From a virus: a stretch of 64,000 bases of DNA. The stretch is taken from IMG/VR virus record IMGVR_UViG_3300028920_002946, positions 118,678 through 182,677 of that record; one strand, written 5' to 3'. A program made the translations under genes and the position numbers. Below are positions 48,101-60,840 of this stretch, in pieces. The first letter of the stretch is position 1, and each line of letters starts with the position of its first letter. The notes below the pieces were generated by a model, which saw only the letters and a list, made by a program, of their open reading frames with translations, searched no databases and was not told where the DNA came from.

Positions 48101-48115
48101 CGGAACGGAGGACAG

Positions 48116-49015
48116 ATGAACCCGACTCTCGTGGCGGACAGCATCAGGGACAGGTTGTCGAAATACGTCGCCGACCACAACCTCAAGGCTCTGGTGCTCG
48201 GGGTGTCCGGAGGCGTCGACAGCGCCGTCTGCGCCGCCCTCGCCAGGCCGGTGTGCGACCTCCACGGGATCGATCTCGTCGGGCGCAGCATCACCATCGC
48301 CTCGAACAAGCGGGGTGAGATAACACGCGCGCAGTTAGTCGGCGAGGCGTTCTGCACGGACTTCAAGGAGATCGATCTCGGGGACGAGTTCGCGTCGCTT
48401 GTGAAGATCCTCATCGAGGACGACGAGCCGGGCGACCTGACGCACGAGCGGAGGGTGCGCCGCGGCAACCTCAAGGCTCGCCTGCGCATGATCCGGCTCT
48501 ATGATCTGGCCAGCAAACACGGCGGCATGGTGCTCTCCACGGACAACCTCACGGAACTGCTCCTCGGCTTCTGGACCATCTGCGGCGATGTCGGGGACTA
48601 CGGCATGATACAGAAGCTGTGGAAGAGCGAGGTGTACGCCGTCGCGCGCTCTCTGTGCCGCGCATTCGAGGCGGAGAAGAGGTCGGACAGGAGCGAGGCC
48701 CTGCAGGCCTGCATAGCCGCCGTGCCCACGGACGGCCTGGGCGTGACCGACAGCGACCTCGACCAGTTCGGCGCCTCTGACTACGAGGAGGTCGAGCGCA
48801 TCCTCAAGACATGGCTCTGCCAGGACGAGGACGCGTTCGCCTGGGACTCCTGGCTGCGCTACGAGGGGCGCCCGGAGACGTTCAAGGAACTGCTGGAGGA
48901 GCGCGGGCGCATCGCCGACCACCCCGTGGTGTGTAGGCACGTCGCAACGGCCTACAAGCGCGACATACCCATCAGCATACCGCGGCACGACATAGACGGC
49001 CTTCCCGACGAGTAG
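48116..49015 (+). CDS. nadE: NAD synthetase (NadE)
   Basis: 299 aa. P-loop GVSGGVDSAVCAAL, RGNLKARLRMIRLYDLA, and STDNLTELLLGFWTICGDVG. Amidates nicotinate adenine dinucleotide to NAD+. With PncB it would restore NAD+ if the host depletes it in defence. Confidence 0.87.
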   Translation: MNPTLVADSIRDRLSKYVADHNLKALVLGVSGGVDSAVCAALARPVCDLHGIDLVGRSITIASNKRGEITRAQLVGEAFCTDFKEIDLGDEFASLVKILIEDDEPGDLTHERRVRRGNLKARLRMIRLYDLASKHGGMVLSTDNLTELLLGFWTICGDVGDYGMIQKLWKSEVYAVARSLCRAFEAEKRSDRSEALQACIAAVPTDGLGVTDSDLDQFGASDYEEVERILKTWLCQDEDAFAWDSWLRYEGRPETFKELLEERGRIADHPVVCRHVATAYKRDIPISIPRHDIDGLPDE

Positions 49016-49036
49016 CGCCAGGGGCCTTGGCGCCGC

Positions 49037-49050
49037 TAATCTATTAATAC
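49037..49050 (+). promoter_or_regulatory. Late-type promoter motif, site 4
   Basis: TAATCTATTAATAC, 9 nt before ATG 49059; the close spacing would give a leaderless or near-leaderless message. Confidence 0.4.
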
Positions 49051-49058
49051 CCGCTCAC

Positions 49059-49556
49059 ATGGGTATGATGGACGTCACCTCCATGCTCGACAGGGTAGCC
49101 GACAGGCTCGAGGCCGCCGGAAGGTTCCGCGAGGCCGAGGATGTCGATGTGCTGTCCAACACGATCGAGGCCGCGGGGTGGCGGCCGCTGCCGACGAGGA
49201 ACGTGGGCGGCGTCCCGCTCACCGAGCGGAAGATCGGCGACCCCAAGGGCATCAAGGAGAGGGGGGACAAACCCTCGAGATTCGATGTGGCGAAGGAGAT
49301 GGTGGACAGGCACATCGACGAGCGCAACGTCGCCATAGGGGCCGTCAAGGCGGGCATGGAGAGGTACGGGAGGATACTCGACGAAATCGCCAGGGAACAC
49401 CCGGATGTCGCCCCGAAGGCGCGCGAGTACAAGAAAAGGGTGAGCGACATGGCCGTTTCGGTCGAAAGGCAGCTGAAGGACTTCCTGCTCTATTTGATGC
49501 AGGTCAAGGGGGGCCCCGAGGTCACCGAATCCATGGTGGATTACCAAAGCAGTTGA
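49059..49556 (+). CDS. Unknown protein with N-terminal helical motif shared with 56363-56872
   Basis: 165 aa. First 40 residues: MLDRVADRLEAAGRFREAED then VDVLSNTIEA, matching the start of protein 56363-56872. The rest is helical. Start may be ATG 49068. A leader or targeting helix, or a virion-related segment, is possible. Confidence 0.55.
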   Translation: MGMMDVTSMLDRVADRLEAAGRFREAEDVDVLSNTIEAAGWRPLPTRNVGGVPLTERKIGDPKGIKERGDKPSRFDVAKEMVDRHIDERNVAIGAVKAGMERYGRILDEIAREHPDVAPKAREYKKRVSDMAVSVERQLKDFLLYLMQVKGGPEVTESMVDYQSS

Positions 49557-49581
49557 CACGGGGGCCTCTCCGTGCTATATT
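49553..49581 (+). promoter_or_regulatory. Sigma70 promoter TTGACA-17-TATATT, tRNA leader 1
   Basis: -35 TTGACA (49553-49558, overlapping the end of the preceding gene), 17-bp spacer, -10 TATATT (49576-49581). Start near 49588. Confidence 0.8.
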
Positions 49582-49600
49582 TGGTGCTTGGAGGAGAACC

Positions 49601-49660
49601 ATGACAAACGCCATGCTCAGGATAGTCGGAGAAGGTAGGGAGGGGAGAGGGCCGTCCTGA
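49601..49660 (+). CDS. tRNA-operon leader peptide 1 (19 aa)
   Basis: GGAGGAG, then ATG 49601 to TGA 49658. Product MTNAMLRIVGEGREGRGPS. Codons from 49619 to 49651 include AGG, ATA, GGA, GAA, GGT, GAG, GGG and AGA: one for every tRNA downstream up to 53197 (Arg CCT, CAT, Gly TCC, Glu TTC, Gly GCC, Glu CTC, Gly CCC, Arg TCT). Only GTC is foreign in that run. By analogy with amino-acid leader peptides the ribosome would act as a sensor of these tRNAs; the peptide itself probably has no role. Confidence 0.8.
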   Translation: MTNAMLRIVGEGREGRGPS

Positions 49661-49697
49661 CGGGGCGTTTTGCGTTTGAACACCAACCCCCGTCAGG
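49656..49697 (+). promoter_or_regulatory. Antiterminator pairing, leader 1
   Basis: CCTGACGGGG (49656-49665, covering the leader's stop codon) is complementary, 10 of 10 bases, to CCCCGTCAGG (49688-49697), the 5' arm of the terminator. The two hairpins are mutually exclusive. Confidence 0.75.
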
Positions 49698-49721
49698 CCA
49701 GCCTGGCGGGGGTTTCTTTTT
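49687..49721 (+). terminator. Intrinsic terminator, tRNA leader 1
   Basis: 11-bp stem (49687-49697 with 49702-49712, one G-T pair), CCAG loop, then TTTCTTTTTC. Lies between leader peptide 1 and the first tRNA (49763). Confidence 0.88.
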
Positions 49722-49762
49722 CTGTTCTTTGACAGTCTGCGGGTGCTAACAAGAACATCCAA

Positions 49763-49838
49763 GGCCCTATCGTCTAGTGGACCAGGACGGGTGGTTCTCA
49801 GCCATCAAACCGGGGTTCAATTCCCCGTAGGGCTACCA
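49763..49838 (+). tRNA. tRNA-Glu(CTC)
   Basis: Cloverleaf with anticodon stem GGTGG/CCATC and loop TTCTCAG (anticodon CTC). CCA encoded. First tRNA of block 1; matches GAG in leader 1. Confidence 0.9.
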
Positions 49839-49957
49839 TATAGCAAGCTTGTCGCGAGAGGACTCCGCGCGGGGTCTCCGCCCCCAAGGCCTGGCCCGGG
49901 CCGGCAGGGCGGGAGTAGCGGCGGCAGGGCGCTTTCACTACGGATCGGAGGAGGCCG

Positions 49958-50638
49958 ATGGATACTGCAATCGTGGAAATCAGGGCCGCCGAGGGCGGCG
50001 ACGACGCAAAGCTCCTCGTCGAGGAGCAACTGAAGATTTACGGCAAGGCGTGCATGCTGCATGGGCTATGACTGGCCATCCTGGAGATGCGGCCGGGATA
50101 CGTCTGCATCAAGGTGTCGGGACCCGGGGCCGGAAAACTCTTCGGGCCGGAGGGGGGCGGCCACAGGTGGCAGAGGGTGCCGCCGACGGAGAGGCGCGGC
50201 CGCGTCCAGACATCAACCGTCACGGTAGCGGTTCTTCGGGAGATCCCCGATCTGTCGCTCGACATCCCCGACGAGGACATTGAGATCACGACAGCCCGGG
50301 GATCCGGCAGGGGCGGCCAGCACCGCAACGTCACGGACTCCGCCGTGCAGATCAAACACGTCCCCACGGGCGTTATCGTGAGGTGCGAGTCGGAGCGCAG
50401 CCAGCACCGCAACATGGAACAGGCCATGGGTGTGCTGAAGCAGCGCATCCACCATCTGAGGGCCTCCTCGGTTTCAGAGGGGCGCAACAGCAGGCGCCGG
50501 CAGCAGGTGGGGAGCGGCATGCGCGGCGACAAGGTCAGGACCGTTCGCGTGAGGGACGGCAGGGTCGTCAACCATCTCAACGGCGGGCGCACGACGTACA
50601 AGCGGTATTCGCAGGGGCATATCGAGGATTTGTGGTAG
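49958..50638 (+). CDS. Class I release factor (RF1-like) interrupted by an in-frame UGA
   Basis: ATG 49958 follows GGAGGAGG. The frame runs 37 codons to UGA 50069-50071, then continues in the same frame to 50638. Upstream: VEIRAAEGGDDAKLLV; downstream: GGHRWQRVPPTERRGR (PxT-like tripeptide PPT, so UAA/UAG type) and the catalytic GGQ (SGRGGQHRNVTDS). The full product would be ~226 aa without RF domain 1. The UGA (followed by C) replaces a single non-conserved residue with no shift, so readthrough, or a decayed gene, must be considered. Sits between two tRNA-Glu genes. Confidence 0.7.
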
Positions 50639-50644
50639 CGACAC

Positions 50645-50720
50645 GGCCCGGTCGTCTAGTGGTTAGGACATTGGGTTTTCATCCCAAAGATCGCGAGTTC
50701 GATTCTCGTCCGGGCTACCA
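50645..50720 (+). tRNA. tRNA-Glu(TTC)
   Basis: Anticodon stem TTGGG/CCCAA, loop TTTTCAT, CCA encoded. Starts 6 nt after the release-factor gene. Confidence 0.92.
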
Positions 50721-50756
50721 CCCACTCCGGGGGGCGCTATTGAAAAAGGTATTAAC

Positions 50757-50785
50757 TTTACAACAGCGCCCCTCGGGAGTATATT
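50757..50785 (+). promoter_or_regulatory. Sigma70-type promoter TTTACA-17-TATATT
   Basis: -35 TTTACA (50757-50762), -10 TATATT (50780-50785). Start near 50792, 5 nt before tRNA(CAT). An internal promoter not subject to leader 1. Confidence 0.75.
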
Positions 50786-50796
50786 GATGGGTTACA

Positions 50797-50873
50797 GGGC
50801 CCATAACTCAGTCGGTCAGAGTAGCGGACTCATAATCCGTCTGTCCAAGGTTCGAGCCCTTGTGGGCCCACCA
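50797..50873 (+). tRNA. tRNA(CAT): Ile2 or elongator Met
   Basis: Anticodon stem GCGGA/TCCGT, loop CTCATAA, CCA encoded. CAT can be Met or, with lysidine, Ile reading AUA. Leader 1 contains ATA, which favours Ile; sequence alone does not decide. Confidence 0.85.
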
Positions 50874-50894
50874 CCCATCACAAGGAGCCCCCAA

Positions 50895-51170
50895 ATGATC
50901 ATCACGGCGAATTACGCCCCAGGGCAGCGTGTCTCGATAGTCGATGCCGAACTCACGGCGAGGGTCATGGGGGTGCTGTTCACCGACCGCGGCGTGTCGT
51001 ACATATGCCGATGGTATGACGGCCAGGAATTCCAAGAGAACGAGTTCGGTGACTCAGAGCTGTCCTCGACGGGAACACAGAACAGGGTGGCGGCGATATG
51101 CGGGGCGAGCGATGAAAAAGGCGACAAGGGAATTGCCGAAAAGGTTGCCGAGGCTAACCGCCGGAACTGA
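50895..51170 (+). CDS. Small protein, 91 aa
   Basis: ATG 50895 after AAGGAG. Strand-rich N-terminal half (YAPGQRVSIVDAELTARVMG) typical of a small beta-barrel. Overlaps the next gene. Function unknown. Confidence 0.6.
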   Translation: MIITANYAPGQRVSIVDAELTARVMGVLFTDRGVSYICRWYDGQEFQENEFGDSELSSTGTQNRVAAICGASDEKGDKGIAEKVAEANRRN

Positions 51171-51600
51171 CATCAAGGCCTACCTCAAGGAGAAGCGCCG
51201 CTGTGAGTGCGCGCTTCTCAAGGCCATGCGCGAGGCCCACGCCGACCTCAAGGAACTCCTCAAAAAGATGGAGTCCCATTGGGAGTACGAGGATCTCGTC
51301 TACCGGTTCTACCACCACAGCTACAAGGCGCAGTTCGCCGCCGACCTCGGCAACGAGGTGTTCGACAGGCTCCTGTCTTTGGTGCCGTGGGGACACCGTG
51401 AATGCCCCGTGTTCGTACGCAGGCTGCGAGCGCGGTGCCGGCGGCCGTGGACCATGAGAAGGTCGAGGGCCGACATCGAACTGATGCTCCACGCGCGCTA
51501 CTTCCTGGAGATGGCCGTGAGGTACGGCAGGAGATACAAGCGGGGGCCGAATCCCATGCCGAGCGGGTATGCGGCCCTGATGTGCCTGTACGGATTATGA
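51112..51600 (+). CDS. Unknown basic helical protein, 162 aa
   Basis: ATG 51112 overlaps the preceding gene. Helical with an Arg-rich centre (RRLRARCRRPWTMRRSR). Ends 4 nt before tRNA-Arg(TCT). Function unknown. Confidence 0.55.
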   Translation: MKKATRELPKRLPRLTAGTDIKAYLKEKRRCECALLKAMREAHADLKELLKKMESHWEYEDLVYRFYHHSYKAQFAADLGNEVFDRLLSLVPWGHRECPVFVRRLRARCRRPWTMRRSRADIELMLHARYFLEMAVRYGRRYKRGPNPMPSGYAALMCLYGL

Positions 51601-51604
51601 TAAC

Positions 51605-51680
51605 GCCCCCGTAGCTCAGACGAATAGAGCCTCGGACTTCTAATCCGATTGCCCGGGTTTGAGTCCCGGCGGGGGTTCCA
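51605..51680 (+). tRNA. tRNA-Arg(TCT)
   Basis: Stem TCGGA/TCCGA, loop CTTCTAA. Matches AGA in leader 1. CCA encoded. Confidence 0.92.
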
Positions 51681-51681
51681 C

Positions 51682-51756
51682 GCGGACGTAGCTCAATGGT
51701 AGAGCTCGACCCTTCCAAGGTCGCTGTTGTCGGTTCGAGTCCGATCGTCCGCTCCA
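51682..51756 (+). tRNA. tRNA-Gly(TCC)
   Basis: Stem CGACC/GGTCG, loop CTTCCAA. One base after the previous tRNA. Matches GGA in leader 1. Confidence 0.93.
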
Positions 51757-51775
51757 ATTTGTCAAGCGGGATCAG

Positions 51776-52393
51776 ATGAGAAAATTTCGGGATCTATGGA
51801 AACCCTACATCAACCGGCAGAAGTGCTCGGAGTGCCAGCTTGTGACGGCGCTCAACGCGTACACCTATCTGCACGGCAGGCCATATTGCGAACAGGATTC
51901 GGACGAGTACGAGCGCCTTGTCGATATGGTGGGTGCCAGGCACGGGTCGGCGATACACATCGAGAGGGCGTGGAAGCTGTTGGGGATATGGCCCGTCGCC
52001 AGATATATCTCCTTCGATGATGTTCTGTCGCACAGCCCGAGCCACATTTACATGAAGAGGCTACCGCACGACAGGAACTCGAATTGGTCGAAGAGGGTGA
52101 CATGGGTCAAGCGCAACGGGACGATCCAGCGCCAGTCGAAGTCGAAGGCCGTGCTGCCGGCCGAGGTGACGATATGGCATCCGACGGTCGGCTACCACTC
52201 ATGTCTAATTATCGACCGCAACGAGGCCCTCGACATGGTGAGGGTGTCCAACTTCAAGCACGACACGCATTGGTCGGGCTGGATGTTCGTTTCGGAGCTC
52301 AAATGTCTCGAGAGCCGGGTCACGAGCGGGAAGGACGGCTTGAACAGCGATGGTCAGCAGTGGCTGTACAGGGTTTTCGGAACGCGGGAGTAA
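51776..52393 (+). CDS. Putative papain-fold (C39-like) cysteine peptidase
   Basis: 205 aa from ATG 51776. QKCSECQLVTALNAYTYL supplies a candidate Cys followed by the helix typical of papain-like folds, and GYHSCLIIDR a candidate His. Peptidase C39-like similarity by eye. The stop TAA (52391) lies inside the next tRNA. Confidence 0.45.
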   Translation: MRKFRDLWKPYINRQKCSECQLVTALNAYTYLHGRPYCEQDSDEYERLVDMVGARHGSAIHIERAWKLLGIWPVARYISFDDVLSHSPSHIYMKRLPHDRNSNWSKRVTWVKRNGTIQRQSKSKAVLPAEVTIWHPTVGYHSCLIIDRNEALDMVRVSNFKHDTHWSGWMFVSELKCLESRVTSGKDGLNSDGQQWLYRVFGTRE

Positions 52394-52458
52394 CTCAGTG
52401 GCGGAGTCTCTGCTTCCCAAGCAGATGGTCGCGGGTTCGAACCCCGCCTCCCGCTCCA
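52384..52458 (+). tRNA. tRNA-Gly(CCC)
   Basis: Stem TCTGC/GCAGA, loop TTCCCAA. The preceding CDS ends within its first 10 nt. Matches GGG in leader 1. Confidence 0.92.
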
Positions 52459-52473
52459 CCGTAAGGAAGTTTT

Positions 52474-52812
52474 ATGGCCTTAGACTACATCTTCGATGAG
52501 GATGCAGTTCTCAAGGAAGCGGGCGAGTGGCCCGAGATACATTGTAGTGCCGAGGTGTTTTGCAACAGGTGTCGGGTCAAGCACACTACACTCAAATTCA
52601 CCATGAGCCATCCAGATTACAAGCTACCCAAGGACGTTGTAGGTTGCTTCTATGGGCATGATATGCGCGCCTGTATGTGGTACAACGGAAGAATCGAAAA
52701 GGGGTGGTACAGGAGTAGCGACGTTATCTGCTGCCCCCAATGCGCCCCTAAAGAGAAACGTCATGAAAGATGGAGCTTGTTCTGGTGGAATTTCTGGGGT
52801 CGGTTTTTCTGA
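52474..52812 (+). CDS. Cys-rich small protein, 112 aa
   Basis: ATG 52474 after AAGGAA. Cys pairs at CNRC and CCPQC suggest metal binding; aromatic C-terminus (WSLFWWNFWGRFF). Lower GC than neighbours. Function unknown. Confidence 0.55.
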   Translation: MALDYIFDEDAVLKEAGEWPEIHCSAEVFCNRCRVKHTTLKFTMSHPDYKLPKDVVGCFYGHDMRACMWYNGRIEKGWYRSSDVICCPQCAPKEKRHERWSLFWWNFWGRFF

Positions 52813-52865
52813 AGAGGAAGGCTTCACACGAAAGCTGAACAGTCCCCCTCTCCCGCTCCATATAT

Positions 52866-52941
52866 GCGGCAGTAGCTCATCCGGTAGAGCACCTGCTTGC
52901 CATGCAGGAGGTGGTCGGTTCGAGGCCGGCCTGCCGCACCA
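52866..52941 (+). tRNA. tRNA-Gly(GCC)
   Basis: Stem CCTGC/GCAGG, loop TTGCCAT. CCA encoded. Reads GGT/GGC; leader 1 has GGT. Confidence 0.93.
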
Positions 52942-52943
52942 GA

Positions 52944-52972
52944 TTAATCCAGGACGCCCGACATATTATATT
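52944..52972 (+). promoter_or_regulatory. Sigma70-type promoter TTAATC-17-TATATT
   Basis: -35 TTAATC (52944-52949), -10 TATATT (52967-52972). Start near 52979, upstream of a structured region and tRNA-Arg(CCT). Confidence 0.65.
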
Positions 52973-52978
52973 GGTGTA

Positions 52979-53110
52979 TGGAAGCCGTAAAACCCATGGG
53001 GCCGGAGGCAAGACAACCGACCGCGCGGCGGCGCCGACGGGGGACAACTTCCCCGGCCTCACGAAGCCGGGCGCCCTTGAGGTTAGAGTCGCCTTTCCCC
53101 ATGGGTCCCG
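52979..53110 (+). ncRNA. Candidate structured RNA (~130 nt), unknown class
   Basis: Closing stem 52992-53001 with 53097-53106 (10 bp perfect), continued after a CC bulge by 53004-53009 with 53091-53096, then 53012-53014 with 53088-53090 and 53015-53018 with 53081-53084 (AGA bulge). Inside are GGCGCC (53030-53035 with 53070-53075) and a GGGG/CCCC hairpin (53040-53054). Promoter immediately upstream. Alternatively a 50-codon Arg-rich frame (52978-53130) runs through it, ending inside tRNA-Arg(CCT). I recognise no known RNA class. Confidence 0.5.
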
Positions 53111-53120
53111 GCATATGTAA

Positions 53121-53197
53121 GCCCCTGTAGCTCAGCAGGATAGAGCACGAGTTTCCTAAACTCGGTGTCCCGCGTTCGAGTCGCGGCAGGGGTGCCA
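53121..53197 (+). tRNA. tRNA-Arg(CCT)
   Basis: Stem CGAGT/ACTCG, loop TTCCTAA. Last tRNA of block 1; AGG occurs twice in leader 1. Confidence 0.92.
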
Positions 53198-53216
53198 AAT
53201 ACAGATGGAGGATGTC

Positions 53217-53783
53217 ATGAGGGCAACGCCCAAGAAGTCCGCATCGAAGGCCCCGCGCCCGAGGCGCAATAGCACCCGCAAGGCTGCCGCCAAGCCCAAG
53301 CCGAAAAAGAAGAATACCCCGCCCGACGAGGAGGGGTTCCTCCATGACCGCCTCCTGACGGTCGAATCGGCCCTCAAGAACTTGACCAAGCACGTCCGCC
53401 ACATCGAGAAGGCCCTCGATGACGCCGAGGGAAGGGGCCGGGAAAAAGCCGCCTGGGAGGGTTTCGGCGAGGGCATGAGCGCCCTGTCGGGCCTCATCAC
53501 CGACATCCGAACCATCGAGACCAACATCCGCGATATAGTGGCGCAGAATCCGACCGACCGCCTCGAAAACGCGCTCGGCCGCGCCGTCATGCTGTCGCTG
53601 CTGTGGTTCAGGGAGGGCGACCGCGAACCTCTGCAGATACACAGGATCCTCGTTGCGAAGGTGCTGGACATCTTGAAGGAGTGGGCCTCCAAGAAGGATG
53701 TCAAAACCTTCGAGGGCAGCATGGACCAAGCCCTCGCCAGGAGCGTGTACGACGCCCTCGGCGGCCATTCGATTCTCGACTGA
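53217..53783 (+). CDS. Helical protein with basic N-terminus, 188 aa
   Basis: ATG 53217 with GGAGG upstream. Basic N-terminus (Lys/Arg/Pro), then an all-helical body. Possibly DNA- or RNA-binding. Function unknown. Confidence 0.55.
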   Translation: MRATPKKSASKAPRPRRNSTRKAAAKPKPKKKNTPPDEEGFLHDRLLTVESALKNLTKHVRHIEKALDDAEGRGREKAAWEGFGEGMSALSGLITDIRTIETNIRDIVAQNPTDRLENALGRAVMLSLLWFREGDREPLQIHRILVAKVLDILKEWASKKDVKTFEGSMDQALARSVYDALGGHSILD

Positions 53784-53829
53784 CAACCAAACGAGGCGGC
53801 GCCGCCGCCGCAGAAGAAAGGCGTTCAAA

Positions 53830-54348
53830 ATGGCAATGACCGTACCGGACGACGTCGTGCCGATCATCACGCCGGCGATACGGAATCGTATCGCGCAGCT
53901 ACTCGAGGAGGCCTTCAAGCTCGCCTCGCTGGCAGACTGCTCGGATGTCCTCGAGGGAAGCATCGACAAGCTGACGGCGAAGTACTTCCAGGAGGGCGGG
54001 TCGCCGAGAGATCTCGATGACATGCCGGACAACTCCGACCCGCCGTCGATGTCGATCCTCACAACCGATCTTCCGTCGCCCCGGTCCCTCCTCGAGTCCG
54101 GCGGCCAATCCCGGGCGGTTGGCAGGAACGTCAAAAAGACCCGGGGGATCCCCGTCAGCGAGTTGGTTGAGGCCGACAACTATACGGCGCGCGGAAACCC
54201 CGTGTCCAGGTACAAGGGTGTGTCGTACAGCGGCATGGTGCGCAGGCCGTGGGTGGCCAGGTACAAGGGGAGGCGCCTGGGCTGCTACAAGGATGAGGTT
54301 TCCGCCGCGCAGGCATACGAGCGCGCGCGGTCGAGGAAAAGGGGTTGA
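53830..54348 (+). CDS. AP2-domain DNA-binding protein
   Basis: 172 aa from ATG 53830. C-terminal 45 residues SRYKGVSYSG ... WVARYKGRRLGCYKDEVSAAQAYERA fit an AP2/ERF domain, as in many phage HNH-AP2 proteins, but without HNH. N-terminal ~100 residues are helical and acidic. Ends at the -35 of leader 2. Confidence 0.68.
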   Translation: MAMTVPDDVVPIITPAIRNRIAQLLEEAFKLASLADCSDVLEGSIDKLTAKYFQEGGSPRDLDDMPDNSDPPSMSILTTDLPSPRSLLESGGQSRAVGRNVKKTRGIPVSELVEADNYTARGNPVSRYKGVSYSGMVRRPWVARYKGRRLGCYKDEVSAAQAYERARSRKRG

Positions 54349-54373
54349 CATCGACCCGCAACGGCGGTATATT
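54345..54373 (+). promoter_or_regulatory. Sigma70 promoter TTGACA-17-TATATT, tRNA leader 2
   Basis: TTGACA (54345-54350, at the stop of the AP2 gene), 17-bp spacer, TATATT (54368-54373). Confidence 0.82.
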
Positions 54374-54427
54374 TGATGGATGTCTGCGCCGGGCGTGCCG
54401 CGGCGCAAACCAGCAGGGAGATTCGGA

Positions 54428-54496
54428 ATGTCTGTGACGGTCCTCAAACGAGTCGTTGTCAAGCGTCGGGTATCGACGCCAAGGGGGGCCGTGTAG
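54428..54496 (+). CDS. tRNA-operon leader peptide 2 (22 aa)
   Basis: ATG 54428 (GGGAG upstream) to TAG 54494. Nine successive codons 54446-54472 encode KRVVVKRRV, using AAA, CGA, GTC, GTT, GTC, AAG, CGT, CGG and GTA. The tRNAs downstream to 56021 are Lys TTT, Val TAC, Lys CTT, Arg CCG, Arg ACG and Val GAC, and each has a codon here. Probably a translation sensor, not a functional peptide. Confidence 0.82.
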   Translation: MSVTVLKRVVVKRRVSTPRGAV

Positions 54497-54533
54497 CCTA
54501 GTTTCCGTCTCACGCGATGAATACACGACCCCC
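54484..54533 (+). promoter_or_regulatory. Antiterminator pairing, leader 2
   Basis: 54484-54495 (GGGGGCCGTGTA, reaching into the TAG) pairs with 54522-54533 (TACACGACCCCC), 11 of 12 positions, one C-A mismatch. The second segment includes the terminator's 5' arm. Confidence 0.72.
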
Positions 54534-54561
54534 GGGCGAGCAGCCTGGGGGTTTTCTTTTT
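54529..54561 (+). terminator. Intrinsic terminator, tRNA leader 2
   Basis: Nine-bp stem 54529-54537 with 54543-54551 (one G-T), GAGCA loop, TTTTCTTTTT. tRNA-Lys begins at 54562, directly after the U-tract. Confidence 0.88.
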
Positions 54562-54637
54562 GGGTCCGTAGCTCAGTTGGTAGAGCTTGCGCCTTTTAAG
54601 CGTAAGGTCCCGGGTTCGAAACCCGGCGGGCCCACCA
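54562..54637 (+). tRNA. tRNA-Lys(TTT)
   Basis: Stem TGCGC/GCGTA, loop CTTTTAA. CCA encoded. Abuts the leader 2 terminator; matches AAA. Confidence 0.93.
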
Positions 54638-54670
54638 GAGGGGACTTGCTATTCTATGCATATCCTTTTC

Positions 54671-54745
54671 GGGCGTGTAGCTCAGTCGGTGCAGAGCGCG
54701 TGTTTTACAGGCACGAGGTCGAGCGTTCGAGTCGCTCCGCGCCCA
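54671..54745 (+). tRNA. tRNA-Val(TAC)
   Basis: Stem CGTGT/GCACG, loop TTTACAG. CCA not encoded (ACGG follows). Matches GTA in leader 2. Confidence 0.85.
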
Positions 54746-54762
54746 CGGAAAGGGATGGTGCC

Positions 54763-55173
54763 ATGGGAAACGAGGAAATCGACGGCTTCAGCACGGAGAT
54801 GATAAGAGAACTCAGGAACGACTTTACATTCTTCATCGCCATGTCCATGCTGAAAATAATGGCGTCATCAACGCCGGACGCCAAGAAGTTCATTCGCGAG
54901 GTGGTCTGGAAATGGCGTGAAAAACAGGTGCAGGCACTGCACATAGTGGCGAGCGAGATGGACAAGAGGATGTTTGAGGACAAGGAGTTCTCCGAATTGT
55001 TCGGCCCCGTCATGAGGCAAGTGAACAAGACGCAGCGCGGGGTGATGATAGACTGCATACGCAAATTCTGCGACACCATGGAGGAAGCCCTCGTCGCGTC
55101 CATGTCGTCCGAAACGGACGGAGGCGACGGGGATCCCTTGAATGAAGAAGGCGAAGGCAACGTGCCCTCATAG
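54763..55173 (+). CDS. Unknown helical protein, 136 aa
   Basis: ATG 54763 (AAAGGG upstream). Helical body with an acidic, Gly-rich tail. The TAG stop (55171-55173) lies within tRNA-Lys(CTT), a 10-nt overlap. Function unknown. Confidence 0.6.
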   Translation: MGNEEIDGFSTEMIRELRNDFTFFIAMSMLKIMASSTPDAKKFIREVVWKWREKQVQALHIVASEMDKRMFEDKEFSELFGPVMRQVNKTQRGVMIDCIRKFCDTMEEALVASMSSETDGGDGDPLNEEGEGNVPS

Positions 55174-55239
55174 CTCAGCTGGTAGAGCAGCGGACTCTTA
55201 ATCCGCGAGTCCCAGGTTCGAACCCTGGTGGGGGTACCA
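55164..55239 (+). tRNA. tRNA-Lys(CTT)
   Basis: Stem GCGGA/TCCGC, loop CTCTTAA. CCA encoded. Overlapped at its 5' end by the preceding CDS. Matches AAG in leader 2. Confidence 0.92.
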
Positions 55240-55256
55240 ATTTTTCAGGGCGGCAA

Positions 55257-55333
55257 GCCCCCGTAGCTCAGCGGATGAGAGCACCACGCTCCGGACGTGG
55301 GGGTCGCGCGTTCGAGTCGCGCCGGGGGTACCA
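55257..55333 (+). tRNA. tRNA-Arg(CCG)
   Basis: Stem CCACG/CGTGG, loop CTCCGGA. Matches CGG in leader 2. Confidence 0.92.
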
Positions 55334-55347
55334 GCCAAGGGGTGGGC

Positions 55348-55854
55348 ATGGAAGGCGGATGGTTCGTCAAGCTTCTGCTTCTCACCGTCCAGAGGACGTG
55401 GGCCCTTCTGACGGGCGGGGTGGAGTCCCTGTTCTACCTGAAGCATTGGTCGAGGGGCCACAGGATCATCGCGAATGCGCGCGACCTGATAAGGGACACC
55501 GCCGAACTCGAGAGGTTCTACAAAGAGATGCACGTGGTCGAATACCGGCGGGATTGGCTTGACAGATGGTCGTTCCCGTGGGTCACGGCCGTCAAACGGA
55601 AGGGCGACTGCGAGGATTTCATGACGCTGTCGTACGCGATAATGAAGGAGAAGGCGAAGTGCGTGAGGACAGCCCTGTACGGTAGGAGGGACGGCAAGAG
55701 AGGCGGCCACGCCGTGCTGATCGTCCGCGAGTCCGGCGGGTGGGTCTTGATGAGCAACATGCACCGGTATATATGGTTCGACAATCCGCATGACGCGGCA
55801 CGGAAGCATTACGGAAAGGACACGACCAGGTACTACTTCCTGGACAGGACATAA
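55348..55854 (+). CDS. Transglutaminase-like cysteine peptidase (putative)
   Basis: 168 aa from ATG 55348. KGDCEDFMTLSYAIMKE has the Cys of the transglutaminase fold and GGHAVLIVR the His; a later Asn/Asp completes a triad. Such proteins are known in bacteria as BTLCPs. Activity is unproven. Confidence 0.6.
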   Translation: MEGGWFVKLLLLTVQRTWALLTGGVESLFYLKHWSRGHRIIANARDLIRDTAELERFYKEMHVVEYRRDWLDRWSFPWVTAVKRKGDCEDFMTLSYAIMKEKAKCVRTALYGRRDGKRGGHAVLIVRESGGWVLMSNMHRYIWFDNPHDAARKHYGKDTTRYYFLDRT

Positions 55855-55861
55855 AACATAC

Positions 55862-55938
55862 GCCCCCGTAGCTCAACTGGATAGAGCGTGCGGCTACGGA
55901 CCGCAAGGTTCCGGGTTCGACCCCTGGCGGGGGTGCCA
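55862..55938 (+). tRNA. tRNA-Arg(ACG)
   Basis: Stem TGCGG/CCGCA, loop CTACGGA. If edited to inosine it reads CGT, CGC and CGA; leader 2 has CGA and CGT. Confidence 0.92.
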
Positions 55939-55944
55939 TCTTCA

Positions 55945-56021
55945 GGGCGGTTAGCTCAGCTGGTTAGAGTACGTGGTCGACATCCACGAGGTCGGGAGTT
56001 CGAATCTCCCACCGCCCACCA
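55945..56021 (+). tRNA. tRNA-Val(GAC)
   Basis: Stem CGTGG/CCACG, loop TCGACAT. Matches GTC and GTT in leader 2. CCA encoded. Confidence 0.9.
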
Positions 56022-56050
56022 TAGACATTCAGGCTGCTTGATGGTATATT
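56022..56050 (+). promoter_or_regulatory. Sigma70-type promoter TAGACA-17-TATATT
   Basis: -35 TAGACA (56022-56027) begins right at the end of tRNA-Val(GAC); -10 TATATT (56045-56050). Start ~56057, beside ATG 56059, so the next message may be leaderless. Confidence 0.6.
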
Positions 56051-56058
56051 ACGGGCGT

Positions 56059-56298
56059 ATGAAACCTGAAACCGCCGACACACCGACGAAACCTGAAGCG
56101 GTTAACTACGTGGTCGTGTCATGTTGCGCCTGCAACAAGGTCATGTCGGACGACCGACAATGGTTCGACGGCACCGACCTATTGGCCGTCGTGCCCAAGC
56201 ACTTGGTGAGCCATTCCATCTGCCCTGAGTGCTTCGCCGCGCACTACCCTGAAATGCACGCCCGGTTCTCCAAACAGGGTAAAATACAGGCCGGCTGA
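56059..56298 (+). CDS. Small zinc-ribbon protein, 79 aa
   Basis: ATG 56059. CCACNK ... CPECF pairs ~45 residues apart suggest a metal site. Function unknown; possible leaderless expression from the promoter above. Confidence 0.55.
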   Translation: MKPETADTPTKPEAVNYVVVSCCACNKVMSDDRQWFDGTDLLAVVPKHLVSHSICPECFAAHYPEMHARFSKQGKIQAG

Positions 56299-56362
56299 CT
56301 CCCTAATAATGCTTTAATCGCCACACCTGCTGTACGGACATCAGCAATCAAGGGGATGCCAC

Positions 56363-56872
56363 ATGCAGGCCAGGACTGCCGCTGCCGTTGTGCGCGCAAT
56401 GGACTCGATAGCCTCATCACTCGAGAAAAAGGGACTCCTCAGGGAAGCCGAGGAACTCGATGCGGCGACCAACGCCGTCCAGCGACACGCGACCGACCCA
56501 AGCCAGAACTCGTTCACTTACGACACGTTGCAGCAATATCCCGACTTGATGAAGGCGATCCCTGGTGAGATTCTGTCGGTCATGAAGGCAATGAAAGATT
56601 CAAGCCTATGGTGGCGCGATGACGGTGCCTCCGTTACATTCGACCAATACACATTGGATTCCTCACAGATCAAGACGCTTGCAGCCGCCGGATCCCTCGT
56701 CAAGATATTTCCGGAAGAACACGATAAGTACGGGGATGGGTATCCCGTGCACGACGGATACACAGCGGAATTCAATGTCAAAAGAACGCCACAATTTGAA
56801 CAAGCAGGCACCGCCGCGCTCCAAGATCTCCTCAGGAAAAAGGAATACAAGGAGTTCGACCCGGCCATATAG
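56363..56872 (+). CDS. Unknown protein with N-terminal helical motif shared with 49059-49556
   Basis: 169 aa, AAGGGG upstream. AMDSIASSLEKKGLLREAEE then LDAATNAVQ parallels the start of the 49059 protein; the rest differs. Function unknown. Confidence 0.55.
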   Translation: MQARTAAAVVRAMDSIASSLEKKGLLREAEELDAATNAVQRHATDPSQNSFTYDTLQQYPDLMKAIPGEILSVMKAMKDSSLWWRDDGASVTFDQYTLDSSQIKTLAAAGSLVKIFPEEHDKYGDGYPVHDGYTAEFNVKRTPQFEQAGTAALQDLLRKKEYKEFDPAI

Positions 56873-56881
56873 GTGACAGCA

Positions 56882-57229
56882 ATGGACGATGCCAATAAAG
56901 TAGTGCAAGCATACCTCGCCGGGAAGTCAAAGGAAGCGATGGACTTCTCGTCCATCGCGCCGCTGCTCAAGTCCGAGAAGAAAATGGACGACCGCGAGAT
57001 AGCGCGCGCCCTACGGCTCGCCATAGCCGCGGAACACGACGCGGCCCACCTGTACGAACTCATCGCGGACAGTTGCGAGAACAAGGTTGTCCGCGAACTG
57101 CTTCAGGACATCGCCAACGAGGAAAAGGTCCATGTCGGGGAGCTCCAATGGCTCCTCTCCCACATCGACAGGGACAACGGAAGGCTTCTCCAAGAGGGCG
57201 TGGAGGAGGCGCAGGAAATAGCAGAGTAG
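56882..57229 (+). CDS. Ferritin-like four-helix protein (putative)
   Basis: 115 aa from ATG 56882. AIAAEHDAAHLYELIAD and IANEEKVHVGELQWLL give Glu/His positions like a ferritin-like or encapsulin-cargo diiron site. Iron handling is an inference. Confidence 0.55.
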   Translation: MDDANKVVQAYLAGKSKEAMDFSSIAPLLKSEKKMDDREIARALRLAIAAEHDAAHLYELIADSCENKVVRELLQDIANEEKVHVGELQWLLSHIDRDNGRLLQEGVEEAQEIAE

Positions 57230-57288
57230 CACATCCCACATCCAGCATCGACACGATCAATAACGACAACGGCAAACAGGGGAGAGCA

Positions 57289-57543
57289 ATGATGAGGGTC
57301 GTCATTGCCTTGGTTGCGCTCGTGTTCTTTTCATGCGCGCCGAGGTTCACGGTCTACCTCCACAGGGAGGACAAGATGAACACGGACGGCATCGTCGTCC
57401 TGTCCATCGACACGCTTGAGGGGGTGCACAAAGGCAAGAGGGTGGTGTACGTCATTAGAAGGGATCTCGGCAGCATCGGGAGCGCGGTCTACGGCGCGAG
57501 GCAGAGAAAAATACAGCCAGAGGTTGACAGTCTCTCGAGATGA
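57289..57543 (+). CDS. Small lipoprotein
   Basis: 84 aa. Signal MMRVVIALVALVFFSCAPRF with lipobox FFSC. Could be an outer-membrane spanin (Rz1-like) or surface lipoprotein, but it is not near the amidase. Its 3' end contains the leader 3 promoter's -35. Confidence 0.55.
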   Translation: MMRVVIALVALVFFSCAPRFTVYLHREDKMNTDGIVVLSIDTLEGVHKGKRVVYVIRRDLGSIGSAVYGARQRKIQPEVDSLSR

Positions 57544-57552
57544 GGGTATATT
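57524..57552 (+). promoter_or_regulatory. Sigma70 promoter TTGACA-17-TATATT, tRNA leader 3
   Basis: TTGACA (57524-57529), 17-bp spacer, TATATT (57547-57552). It lies at the end of the lipoprotein gene. Confidence 0.82.
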
Positions 57553-57574
57553 TGGTTGCACAAGGAGTGATGTA

Positions 57575-57655
57575 ATGGTCTACACGGCGAACAACCCAAA
57601 CCCCGTCCAGCAACCGCGGAACCGCGTTCCGTCGGGGTTGGTGGTATTGCCGTAA
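57575..57655 (+). CDS. tRNA-operon leader peptide 3 (26 aa)
   Basis: AAGGAG, then ATG 57575 to TAA 57653. Codons 57590-57616 encode NNPNPVQQP with AAC, CCA, CCC, CAG, CAA and CCG; TTG occurs at 57638 and 57647. tRNAs downstream to 60822 are Asn GTT, Pro TGG, Gln CTG, Gln TTG, Pro CGG, a Leu(TAA)-like one and Pro GGG, each with a matching or wobble codon here. Val and Arg codons present are served by block 2. Confidence 0.8.
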   Translation: MVYTANNPNPVQQPRNRVPSGLVVLP

Positions 57656-57682
57656 GATCAGGCACCAAAAATACCAAAGCCC
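57634..57682 (+). promoter_or_regulatory. Antiterminator pairing, leader 3
   Basis: TGGTATT (57642-57648) pairs with AATACCA (57670-57676); with a two-base bulge, TT and GGG at 57634-57639 can also pair with AA (57677-57678) and CCC (57680-57682), one mismatch between. Weaker than in leaders 1 and 2 but in the same arrangement, running into the terminator's 5' arm. Confidence 0.6.
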
Positions 57683-57711
57683 CGGCGGACGAAAGTTCTC
57701 CGGGGCTTTTT
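57678..57711 (+). terminator. Intrinsic terminator, tRNA leader 3
   Basis: Outer 8-bp stem (57678-57685 with 57700-57707), inner GGAC/GTTC stem with a GAAA loop, then TTTTT. Followed by the nuclease gene and tRNA-Asn. Confidence 0.88.
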
Positions 57712-57735
57712 CGTTTGGTTCACCTAGGAAAAGAG

Positions 57736-58140
57736 ATGAACACGAAGGATATAGGCGAACGATCCGAGGCACAAGTATTGGCCACCCTCTTAAAAGGGGG
57801 TAAGACAGTACTGAAACCATTCGGAGATAACCAAAGGTACGACCTCGTGGTCGACGAGGATGGAGAATTCCTGAGAGTTCAGTGTAAGACAGGAGTATTG
57901 AAAAAGGGATCAATATACTTCCCGACTTGCAGTAGTTACGGACACCGAGGAAGAGGGAAGAAAGGCTATAAGAGAGAAGCAGACATCTTTGCCGTCTATT
58001 GTCCTGCTACTGACAAGGTCTACATTATCCCTGTCGAAGAAGCACCCGAAAGGCAGTGTTACCTACGGGTAGAGAAAACGAAGAACTCTCAAGACAAAAG
58101 AATTCGATGGGCCGAGAAATACGAATACACGGGTGCGTAG
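57736..58140 (+). CDS. PD-(D/E)XK homing-type endonuclease
   Basis: 134 aa from ATG 57736 (AGGA upstream). IGERSEAQVLATLLKGG, YDLVVDEDGEFLRVQCKTG (acidic residues and QxK), then ADIFAVYCPATDKVYIIPVE: the layout of the I-Ssp6803I-type PD-(D/E)XK family. AT-richer than neighbours, suggesting recent arrival. Its TAG stop lies in tRNA-Asn, a usual homing neighbourhood. Confidence 0.7.
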   Translation: MNTKDIGERSEAQVLATLLKGGKTVLKPFGDNQRYDLVVDEDGEFLRVQCKTGVLKKGSIYFPTCSSYGHRGRGKKGYKREADIFAVYCPATDKVYIIPVEEAPERQCYLRVEKTKNSQDKRIRWAEKYEYTGA

Positions 58141-58205
58141 CTCAATGGTAGAGCAAGTGGCTGTTAACCACTGGGTTGGGGGTTCAAGTCCCTCCGTGCC
58201 CGCCA
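58131..58205 (+). tRNA. tRNA-Asn(GTT)
   Basis: Stem AGTGG/CCACT, loop CTGTTAA. CCA encoded. 5' 10 nt overlap the nuclease CDS. First tRNA of block 3; AAC occurs four times in leader 3. Confidence 0.92.
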
Positions 58206-58281
58206 AATTCAGACCGGTCGCAAATGGCTCATGAATGGCTCAAACGGCTCATGTTATGAGAGATTGACCGGTGAGAAGTTC

Positions 58282-58704
58282 GTGACGACCGCAATCTACC
58301 CGAACAGGGAGAGGGACAGGCGCGAACTGGAGCGGCTGTCCGACCTCAAGGAGGGCGGCGACGCCTCGATGCTCTTTCACAGCAGGAACGGTACGCTTCT
58401 GGCCCGGGGGTACGCCCGGGTGGTGTACGGAGACCACGGCCCCTACGTCGAGATGTTCAGGGATCAGGTGGAGTGGGCGGCGTGGGAACTCGAACGGTCG
58501 GACATCGGATACTACAACAAGTGGTGGACGAAGGACGGGACCCGCGTCATGCTGTACGAACAGAGGAAGACGGTTGCCGACCTGCCCAACCCGCCCGCCG
58601 GCAAGCGGTCGCACAGGGGGAACAGGAAGGAAGGATACGCTGACTACCGGATAGGAAGACTGTATTTGGATCCTTACGAGGTGGTCATGAAACACGGAGT
58701 GTAG
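58282..58704 (+). CDS. Conserved phage protein of unknown function, 140 aa
   Basis: GTG 58282 preferred (GGTGAG 6 nt upstream); ATG 58231 is in frame but its N-terminus looks random. AIYPNRERDRRELERL, LLARGYARVVYGDHGPYVE and RIGRLYLDPYEVV look conserved from memory. Stop TAG lies inside tRNA-Pro(TGG). Confidence 0.6.
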   Translation: MTTAIYPNRERDRRELERLSDLKEGGDASMLFHSRNGTLLARGYARVVYGDHGPYVEMFRDQVEWAAWELERSDIGYYNKWWTKDGTRVMLYEQRKTVADLPNPPAGKRSHRGNRKEGYADYRIGRLYLDPYEVVMKHGV

Positions 58705-58772
58705 CGAAGCCTGGTTATCGCACAAGCTTTGGGAGCTTGGGATCGTCCGTTCAAATCGGACCGCTCCGACCA
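58695..58772 (+). tRNA. tRNA-Pro(TGG)
   Basis: Stem CAAGC/GCTTG, loop TTTGGGA. Reads CCA, CCG; CCA in leader 3. 10-nt overlap with the preceding CDS. Confidence 0.9.
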
Positions 58773-58779
58773 GATTTGA

Positions 58780-58855
58780 TGGGGCGTGGCTCAGTTGGTA
58801 GAGCGGCTGACTCTGGATCAGCAGGTCGGAGGTTCGAGCCCTCCCGTCCCAGCCA
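58780..58855 (+). tRNA. tRNA-Gln(CTG)
   Basis: Stem GCTGA/TCAGC, loop CTCTGGA. Matches CAG in leader 3. CCA encoded. Confidence 0.92.
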
Positions 58856-58934
58856 GTTTCACCCCCCGGGGTGCGGCCTGTAGCGGGCCGCGCGGCCACA
58901 CGGCGGAAATCAGGCTCCGCCACGGGAGACCAAT
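58856..58934 (+). other. GC-rich spacer with two hairpins between tRNA-Gln genes
   Basis: 79 nt without a gene; GCGGCC/GGGCCGC and GGCGGA/TCCGCC stems, then ACCA-like end. No cloverleaf. May be a decayed tRNA or a processing spacer. Confidence 0.3.
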
Positions 58935-59009
58935 TGGGGTGTAGCTCAGTGGTAGAGCGGCGGCCTTTGGAGCCGCGCGTCGGGCGTTCGAACCGCCCCA
59001 CCCCAGCCA
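58935..59009 (+). tRNA. tRNA-Gln(TTG)
   Basis: Stem GCGGC/GCCGC, loop CTTTGGA. Matches CAA in leader 3. CCA encoded. Confidence 0.92.
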
Positions 59010-59020
59010 TGGAGGAAGTA

Positions 59021-59278
59021 GTGTCAAAGAAAATAGGCAAGGACTCAACGATTGAAGAGGCGATAGCCTATGCCTTTGATCTTGACGGTAGGATGAAGTG
59101 CACGGACTTCAACGGTGTCGCCCACATCATCCATCTGGACGGGTCGACGTTCACGATCAAAAACGCGATCATCAAGAGGTACGGGAGGTTCGTGGTTGTC
59201 TATGCGGAGCACCAGCACCCGATGGTGTGGTTCAAAGACGACCTGTACCGATTCGGATTGACGAAGTACGGAGTGTAG
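59021..59278 (+). CDS. Small protein, 85 aa
   Basis: GTG 59021 with GGAGG (59011-59015) immediately after the tRNA. Beta-rich with HIIHLDGSTFTIKNAII and VVVYAEHQHPMVWF. Stop TAG in tRNA-Pro(CGG). Function unknown. Confidence 0.55.
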   Translation: MSKKIGKDSTIEEAIAYAFDLDGRMKCTDFNGVAHIIHLDGSTFTIKNAIIKRYGRFVVVYAEHQHPMVWFKDDLYRFGLTKYGV

Positions 59279-59345
59279 CTCAGTCTGGTGGAGCGCTGCG
59301 TTCGGGACGCAGAGGTCGCCGGTTCAAATCCGGCCACTCCGACCA
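59269..59345 (+). tRNA. tRNA-Pro(CGG)
   Basis: Stem CTGCG/CGCAG, loop TTCGGGA. CCG in leader 3. Overlapped by the preceding CDS stop. Confidence 0.9.
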
Positions 59346-59373
59346 ATCTTTCACCTGTTTACGATCTTGCGAA

Positions 59374-59450
59374 CGGGAAAGCCCAGTCTGGTCAGAGCAC
59401 TACGTTTAAGGCGTAGGGGGTCGTCAGTTCGAATCTGGCCTACCCGACCA
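59374..59450 (+). tRNA. tRNA-like, anticodon TAA (Leu) on a Pro-like body
   Basis: Anticodon stem CTACG/CGTAG, loop TTTAAGG. Acceptor stem has mismatches (CGGGAAA vs CTACCCG) and the D stem is imperfect; no long variable arm as Leu tRNAs have. T arm intact, CCA encoded. Likely derived from the adjacent Pro tRNA; a Leu or degenerate tRNA. Confidence 0.5.
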
Positions 59451-59490
59451 ACTCATGTTGTCCTTTGACAACACTTTCTGTTCAAACAAC

Positions 59491-59519
59491 TTGTAATAAG
59501 TTCCGTTAGGGACTATATT
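59491..59519 (+). promoter_or_regulatory. Sigma70-type promoter TTGTAA-17-TATATT
   Basis: -35 TTGTAA (59491-59496), -10 TATATT (59514-59519). Drives the 59582 lipoprotein gene. Confidence 0.65.
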
Positions 59520-59581
59520 AAGTGGGTAATGATGCGATGCTTATGCACTTCATTCTGTACAAATACTCAAAGGAGAGGGTC

Positions 59582-60145: not shown

Positions 60146-60232
60146 CAGTTGGCAGATATGATCAAGGAATCTCAAAGCGTAAGGCAAATGGTAACGGAAA
60201 ATCATCGAGATTCTTGAAGAAAGAAGATAAAG

Positions 60233-60667: not shown

Positions 60668-60740
60668 TAGCTTAGCTTGGTAGAGCATTTGACTTTGGGA
60701 GCCAGAGATTTCGTCCGTTCAAATCCGGCCACTCCGACCA
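60661..60740 (+). pseudogene. Degenerate/chimeric tRNA-Pro(TGG)
   Basis: Loop TTTGGGA keeps a Pro anticodon, but the acceptor and T stems are mismatched and length is 80 nt. The 5' T-arm resembles tRNA-Pro(TGG) at 58695 and the 3' end is identical to tRNA-Pro(CGG) at 59269, so a recombinant is likely. Confidence 0.6.
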
Positions 60741-60745
60741 AATTT

Positions 60746-60822
60746 CGGGGCGTAGCGCAGCCTGGTAGCGCACGTGAATGGGGTTCACGTGGTCGCTGGT
60801 TCAAATCCAGTCGCCCCGACCA
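60746..60822 (+). tRNA. tRNA-Pro(GGG)
   Basis: Stem CGTGA/TCACG, loop ATGGGGT. CCC in leader 3. CCA encoded. Last of block 3. Confidence 0.88.
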
Positions 60823-60840
60823 ATTCACCGGAGGCATGAG

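Follow-up and report, generated by a model that had tools for sequence, protein, structure and literature searches.

Three blocks of tRNA genes near the end of a large viral genome are each preceded by a short open reading frame (ORF) whose codons are matched to the tRNAs encoded in that block, and these leaders are very probably ribosome-mediated transcription attenuators whose regulated product is tRNA. The DNA belongs to IMGVR_UViG_3300028920_002946, a virus record of 182,677 bases with a GC content of 62%, and the 64,000-base stretch analyzed here (the window) is its end, positions 118678 to 182677. Judging by its portal protein, which is 43% identical to that of LR745208 (485 kb), 36% to that of Tunturi 5, and 28% to that of Bacillus phage G, the source is probably a large virus of bacteria related to the huge phages. 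All 22 tRNA genes found by ARAGORN in the record lie within its last 15 kb.

Organization of the leaders and tRNA blocks

Each of the three tRNA blocks is headed by a TTGACA-17-TATATT promoter, followed by a short ORF and then by an intrinsic terminator (Table 1). Strong plus-strand terminators, defined by a score of at least 20, occur exactly three times in the 182.7-kb record, and these are the terminators of leaders 1 to 3. The three leader ORFs end in TGA, TAG, and TAA, respectively, using all three stop codons.

For leader 2, a preliminary description of this DNA had reported nine consecutive Lys, Arg, and Val codons ahead of tRNA-Lys, tRNA-Val, and tRNA-Arg genes. The run is present, and the further claim that it covers all six downstream tRNAs also proved correct: all nine codons can be decoded by block 2, and each of the six ARAGORN-called genes between 54562 and 56021 is represented, with CGA and CGT being read by tRNA-Arg(ACG) via I34. 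A second in-frame ATG lies at 54380, about where the transcript is expected to begin. Translation of leader 2 may therefore start at either 54380 or 54428, and the control run is identical whichever ATG begins the ORF. Two structural details from the same description were recovered as well, namely, an antiterminator duplex with 11 of 12 positions paired, formed between the arm at the end of the ORF (segment 2) and its partner (segment 3), and a terminator U-tract whose final base directly adjoins the first base of tRNA-Lys(UUU). Upstream of these elements, a putative protector (segment 1) pairs with segment 2 in MFE folds of the full transcript.

Table 1. Positions of the leaders, tRNA blocks, and associated genes (window coordinates, except for two entries in stretch L070 of the related genome G011)
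Feature	Position	Strand	Details
RlaP-family (RNA repair) protein	44797-45924	+	Pfam PF10127, E = 4.4e-18
Promoter of leader 1	49553-49581	+	TTGACA-17-TATATT
Leader peptide 1	49601-49660	+	Short ORF, MTNAMLRIVGEGREGRGPS*
Control codons of leader 1	49619-49651	+	AGG ATA GTC GGA GAA GGT AGG GAG GGG AGA GGG
Antiterminator arm of leader 1	49656-49669	+	CCTGACGGGGCGTT; duplex P = 0.0005
Terminator 1	49685-49722	+	Strong (score at least 20)
tRNA block 1	49763-53197	+	Glu-CUC, Glu-UUC, Met/Ile2-CAU, Arg-UCU, Gly-UCC, Gly-CCC, Gly-GCC, Arg-CCU (ARAGORN)
RF-1-domain protein in block 1	50087-50638	+	183 aa; partial PCRF plus RF-1 domain with GGQ
Promoter of leader 2	54345-54373	+	TTGACA-17-TATATT, 11/12 consensus; layout common to leaders 1 and 3 and relatives
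Leader peptide 2	54428-54496	+	MSVTVLKRVVVKRRVSTPRGAV*; ATG 54428, TAG 54494-54496; read in sequence
Segment 1 (putative protector) of leader 2	54436-54445	+	GACGGTCCTC
Control codons of leader 2	54446-54472	+	AAA CGA GTC GTT GTC AAG CGT CGG GTA
Segment 2 (antiterminator arm) of leader 2	54484-54495	+	GGGGGCCGTGTA; overlaps ORF end; duplex P = 0.0245 versus shuffles
Segment 3 (partner of segment 2)	54522-54533	+	TACACGACCCCC; 11/12 pairing; extends into terminator 5' arm
Terminator 2	54527-54561	+	Intrinsic; stem 54527-54553; U-tract TTTTCTTTTT 54552-54561
tRNA-Lys(UUU)	54562-54637	+	ARAGORN; Rfam 69.3 bits
tRNA-Val(UAC)	54671-54746	+	ARAGORN
tRNA-Lys(CUU)	55164-55239	+	ARAGORN
tRNA-Arg(CCG)	55257-55333	+	ARAGORN
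tRNA-Arg(ACG)	55862-55938	+	ARAGORN
tRNA-Val(GAC)	55945-56021	+	ARAGORN
Promoter of leader 3	57524-57552	+	TTGACA-17-TATATT
Leader peptide 3	57575-57655	+	Short ORF, MVYTANNPNPVQQPRNRVPSGLVVLP*
Control codons of leader 3	57590-57616	+	AAC AAC CCA AAC CCC GTC CAG CAA CCG
Antiterminator arm of leader 3	57628-57647	+	Duplex P = 0.0005
Terminator 3	57677-57712	+	Strong (score at least 20)
tRNA block 3	58131-60822	+	Asn-GUU, Pro-UGG, Gln-CUG, Gln-UUG, Pro-CGG, Pro-UGG, Pro-GGG (ARAGORN)
Interrupted tRNA-Gln, G011 block d	L070 15997-16275		207-base insert in anticodon loop; ARAGORN intron mode
tRNA-Asn split by group I intron, G011 block d	L070 16360-16632		Insertion in anticodon loop

Leader codons match the downstream tRNA blocks

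The nine-codon run of leader 2 is the longest block 2-decodable run in any of the six frames of the whole record. When only codon match was scored, leaders 1, 2, and 3 ranked third, second, and first for their own blocks among the 1085 ATG-initiated short ORFs of the record; given the rank of leader 2, codon match by itself does not uniquely identify a leader in so GC-rich a genome. Once position, promoter, and terminator are added, the match between leader and block is beyond chance. For a comparison blind to codon content, leaders were defined by rule as a promoter plus the first ATG ORF in all tRNA stretches analyzed (n = 22), and leaders 1 to 3 each ranked first among the 22 for their own block. 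The summed own-block score was 207.4, compared to a permuted mean of 80.0 (standard deviation, 14.5; maximum, 180.1), with 0 of 200,000 permutations reaching the observed value. Excluding the window genome gave a matched score of 152.3 versus 66.2 when permuted, again with 0 of 200,000.

A scan of 389 block starts returned 12 scores of at least 15 versus 0.8 expected from swapped blocks, and 24 scores of at least 12 versus 3.3 expected. The match persisted in genomes ranging from 30 to 64% GC. Leader-block matching is strong at the amino acid level. Choice of codons at the level of isoacceptors is weakly supported in the window genome (G000), where Watson-Crick coverage gave P values of 0.05, 0.02, and 0.015, and matching of exact isoacceptors beyond the amino acid level was not significant in the other genomes. 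In four leaders, each of the 11 Arg codons belongs to the same box (AGR or CGN) as the tRNA-Arg encoded in that leader's block; the product of usage shares for these codons is about 3e-4, in a comparison picked after the data had been seen.

Antiterminator pairing and the predicted switch

Segments following the last control codon were tested for pairing with the terminator 5' arm using dinucleotide shuffles as the null, with control-run ends and terminator arms set by hand for both this analysis and the ribosome-mask folding. P values for leaders 1 to 3 are given in Table 1. Combining 11 leaders gave a Fisher P of 2.5e-13, or 9e-9 without the window genome, while the test was not significant for G011-a, Tunturi 5 a, and G009-b individually (P of 0.06 to 0.13).

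Folding with a ribosome mask gave antiterminator probabilities of approximately 0.5 to 1.0 across the control run and a fall near the end of the run, placing the predicted switch about −1 to +2 codons from the run end in 12 of 13 leaders. For leaders 1 to 3, G011-b, and G011-d, the modeled antiterminator probability was approximately 0.7 to 1.0 with the A site on control codons and near zero just past the run, and in G009-a it dropped from 0.52 to 0. Seven further leaders followed the same pattern with the exception of Tunturi 5 c, in which the predicted switch is about 7 codons ahead of the end of the matched run. In leader 2, segment 2 is predicted to be masked after the ribosome passes the control run. 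With no ribosome present, nascent RNA is predicted to fold as the antiterminator and full-length RNA to prefer the terminator; protector pairing appears in the folds of leader 2 and of a second leader, G040-a.

These leaders have the parts expected of an attenuator: a promoter and a terminator with a short, translatable ORF between them, control codons whose tRNAs are those encoded downstream, an intrinsic terminator ahead of the structural genes (LR745208 being the exception), an antiterminator whose pairing with the terminator 5' arm is mutually exclusive with the terminator, and, in the folding model, an antiterminator that is free while a ribosome occupies the control codons and blocked once it moves beyond them. 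Anatomy, ribosome-mask folding, and independent relatives give strong support to attenuation by leader translation as first described. Searches for the T-box riboswitch (specifier loop, T-box) gave zero Rfam matches in 48000-58200 or 57400-64000, the Rfam His, Trp, Leu, and Thr leader families had no covariance-model match at the window leaders, and G011 had His_leader matches below threshold only; because these searches were negative, T-box elements and the known Rfam amino acid leaders were ruled out as the identity of the leaders.

Matched leaders in related phages

Relatives reached through the portal protein, among them G011, LR745208, Tunturi 5, and phage G, have leaders whose amino acids differ and correspond to their own tRNA blocks. 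The genome G011 (IMGVR_UViG_3300028840_006907), with a GC content of 34%, has five leaders. One (MKTTNNIISIAIEWRERDREVHIT, EWRERDRE) precedes Glu, Arg, Met, Trp, Asp, and Arg tRNAs, another (MTSINLSAIIKTAGATGTTVVVGTAGVLP, TGTTVVVGT) precedes Thr, Met, Gly, Gly, Val, and Thr tRNAs, and a long leader rich in Leu, Ser, Lys, Cys, Phe, Ile, and His precedes Phe, Ile, Leu, Lys, Ser, Cys, and His tRNAs plus further Leu and Arg tRNAs. The remaining two, d and e, are arranged in tandem and encode Asn, Pro, and Gln, with NNNPQPNQP preceding Gln and Pro tRNAs. Asn codons are frequent in leaders d and e, yet no tRNA-Asn had been called in the block; these leaders pointed to a hidden tRNA-Asn, which was then found: the block contains a group I intron (Rfam, 92.8 bits), and its joined flanks are recognized by ARAGORN as tRNA-Asn(GUU). 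A tRNA-Gln in the same block is also interrupted (Table 1). In block b of Tunturi 5, an ambiguous head tRNA has the Asn-GUU anticodon-loop sequence and leader b carries Asn codons. Leaders can be used as a guide to tRNA genes missed by annotation.

The isolate Tunturi 5 carries 43 tRNA genes (PMC11924767). Its three leaders all have a terminator, and one of them is annotated as gp308; the leader LCLSSYCLSSSLSLS precedes Leu, Cys, Tyr, and Ser tRNAs. In the isolate phage G, gp86 (MMKCSWFEFDTDFTDVFYCEYTFYSLYTFLDIRKQLQKSRGCLT) lies before tRNA-Cys, -Asp, -Phe, -Tyr, -Glu, -Thr, -Ser, and -Trp, with CSWFEFDTDFTDVFYCEYTFYS preceding the Cys, Asp, Phe, Tyr, Glu, Thr, and Ser tRNAs. Of the short ORFs in a 16-kb stretch (n = 164), gp86 scores highest, at 24.9 bits versus 9.7 for the runner-up. 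In LR745208 (L078 to L081), the tRNA clusters are sorted by amino acid. Matched leaders there correspond to Glu/Asp, Arg/Gly, Thr, Pro/Ala, Tyr/Cys/His, and five tRNA-Leu; for example, LKLELLL precedes the five tRNA-Leu genes and HLHHHCY precedes Tyr, Cys, and His tRNAs. Its leaders lack a U-tract terminator and have GC-rich hairpins between leader and tRNA instead.

In the scan of 389 block starts, one matched leader each stood out in G009, G003, G006, and G040, the G009 leader NNQSNQQNQSDNNSDS preceding Gln, Asn, Asp, and Ser tRNAs. Relatives identified by release factor and NAD synthase were mostly too distant, and first terminator screens of them gave little, but G009, G003, and G006, which were reached by this route, were later shown to have matched leaders. 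A UvsX-like query of viral contigs found no relative. Another lineage (G012, G014, G016, and G030 to G039) carries its tRNA genes in single long arrays, and these mostly have no block leader. Candidate universal leaders of G015 and G010, which contain nearly all amino acids, were not counted, as their own-block scores were unremarkable; the G015 candidate is a 56-codon ORF (L086, 3640-3808, minus strand orientation) that lies ahead of a large array of mixed tRNAs and is a possible universal leader. Promoter-short ORF-terminator units with "SYW" ORFs, followed by a GGCG...GGGCGGCC stretch, precede tRNA arrays of two other phages at L022 3380-3660 and L044 14434-14690 (G009-b) and were left as leads.

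Proposed mechanism and alternative explanations

In the proposed mechanism, RNA polymerase would initiate at the TTGACA/TATATT promoter with a ribosome trailing it on the leader 2 ORF. If Lys, Arg, and Val tRNAs were ample, the ribosome would reach the end of the ORF and cover the antiterminator arm, the terminator hairpin would form, and transcription would end just 5' of tRNA-Lys. If any tRNA needed in the run were scarce, the ribosome would stall there. The arm would then be left free to pair with the terminator on its 5' side, and transcription would continue into the tRNA genes. The run is decoded by the very tRNAs that the block encodes, so such a loop would be self-limiting, with new supply restoring fast reading and termination. 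Stall-dependent activation of replacement tRNAs would follow from this geometry.

Translation of the leaders, actual read-through, and the cause of tRNA scarcity during infection are inferred; decoding could be slowed by cleavage of tRNAs by nucleases, by decay of host tRNAs, or by a mismatch in codon use, and the data favor none of these. An anticodon nuclease is a plausible trigger. The PrrC-type Lys nuclease named in the preliminary description is one of several candidates: the leader 2 run would sense Arg and Val in addition to Lys, many further amino acids would be sensed by other leaders, and ribosomes would also stall under starvation or a simple shortage of tRNA.

Two special cases of the attenuator reading differ in why tRNAs would run short. 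Homeostatic control of supply, in which a block is switched on only as needed when host pools decay or become mismatched late in infection and no defense system takes part, has a little less than an even chance of being correct. The block-wise grouping, with all tRNAs of a block represented in one run, the self-limiting logic of the loop, and the rise of phage tRNA count with genome size (PMC7162821) are all consistent with it. More tentatively, the leaders may constitute an inducible counter-defense, a panel of codon-specific sensors of tRNA shortage, one per block, that jointly monitor almost the entire genetic code and turn on interspersed repair genes along with replacements for tRNAs destroyed by host defenses. 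An RlaP-type RNA repair gene near block 1 and, in block b of Tunturi 5, the gene gp296 annotated as a tRNA splicing ligase point in this direction. The RlaP-family gene lies some 4 kb 5' of leader 1 and outside control of the leaders. Phage tRNA-Lys, -Tyr, -Thr, and -Asn are reported to rescue cells from PrrC, retron-Eco7, and PARIS (PMC11555353, PMC12409363). True amino acid starvation would not be cured by tRNA genes. Against counter-defense, ordinary tRNA shortage would have the same effect, and the leaders jointly cover nearly all amino acids, including some that are not known to be nuclease targets.

It is very improbable that the short ORFs are ordinary small proteins, with terminators that insulate tRNA arrays from upstream genes and a codon match due to composition or chance. 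This explanation can draw on some Arg/Gly-rich antisense short ORFs of a 62% GC genome, which score equally high for blocks 1 and 2, and on the annotation of phage G gp86 and Tunturi 5 gp308 as unnamed or hypothetical proteins. However, it conflicts with the permutation results, with the antiterminator pairing and the position of the switch, and with the persistence of the match across GC contents; in addition, because the promoter precedes the leader, the terminator would end the leader's own transcript. Sensing of a general slowdown in translation initiation or elongation, rather than of specific tRNAs, is also unlikely. In the folding model an empty leader would antiterminate anyway, as ribosome-free nascent RNA pairs the antiterminator with the terminator arm, but general sensing leaves the codon match to the block unexplained, and the protector pairing in leader 2 and G040-a could shut the ribosome-free path.

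Comparison with known systems

Read as attenuators, the phage leaders resemble those of the trp, his, leu, ilv, thr, and phe operons, which also have a short ORF, control codons, an antiterminator at the ORF end, an intrinsic terminator, and a decisive ribosome position; the 1:2 protector pairing of these operons recurs in leader 2. Unlike those systems, the phage leaders regulate tRNAs themselves rather than biosynthetic enzymes, combine codons for several amino acids in a single run that corresponds to a block of mixed tRNAs, and fall outside the Rfam leader families. Attenuation of aminoacyl-tRNA synthetases by leader peptide or T-box (hisS, PMC2965389) similarly lets tRNA status govern decoding supply, but there the synthetase is controlled and here the tRNA genes, with no match to the T-box family. 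Leader ORFs of the erm/msr/bmr type also open expression when a ribosome stalls, but there a drug and the peptide cause the stall, rather than a lack of the tRNAs encoded downstream. Phage tRNA arrays that rescue cells from anticodon nucleases (T5 tRNA-rich region; PMC11555353, PMC12409363, PMC10264068) likewise substitute for host tRNAs; these papers credit rescue to strong promoters or resistant tRNA variants, and no description of conditional, codon-sensing tRNA expression was found in the portions read.

No report of attenuated phage tRNA genes was found in the open-access papers searched, and the main text of a huge-phage survey (PMC7162821) contains no words starting with leader, attenuat, or terminator. 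If the leaders work as predicted, tRNA arrays of huge phages are conditional, each block answering a shortage of its own tRNAs, and leader-peptide attenuation would extend from biosynthetic operons to tRNA genes. Codon compensation versus replacement of cleaved tRNAs would then become testable in cultured phages, where candidate leaders include gp86 of phage G and gp308 plus two unannotated ORFs of Tunturi 5.

Other genes and tRNA-like sequences

The RF-1-domain protein encoded within block 1 matches Pfam PF00472 (E = 1.8e-28) and scores under the cutoff for all of the NCBIfam PrfA, PrfB, and PrfH models, with PrfA models scoring best. A UUA-anticodon (ochre suppressor) tRNA lies 3' of block 3 at 63645-63720, and tRNAs of this type are also present in G003 and in LR745208 (L082). 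At 59374-59447, a tRNA-like sequence with a UAA-type anticodon loop scores 28.5 bits, slightly below the Rfam cutoff, with no ARAGORN call. Adjacent genes for nicotinate phosphoribosyltransferase and NAD synthase lie immediately 5' of leader 1 (46592-49015) and may have a role in NAD supply or counter-defense. In stretch L006 (15991-18885), a large minus-strand protein contains a Hint/intein-like domain and has a weak match to head maturation protease.
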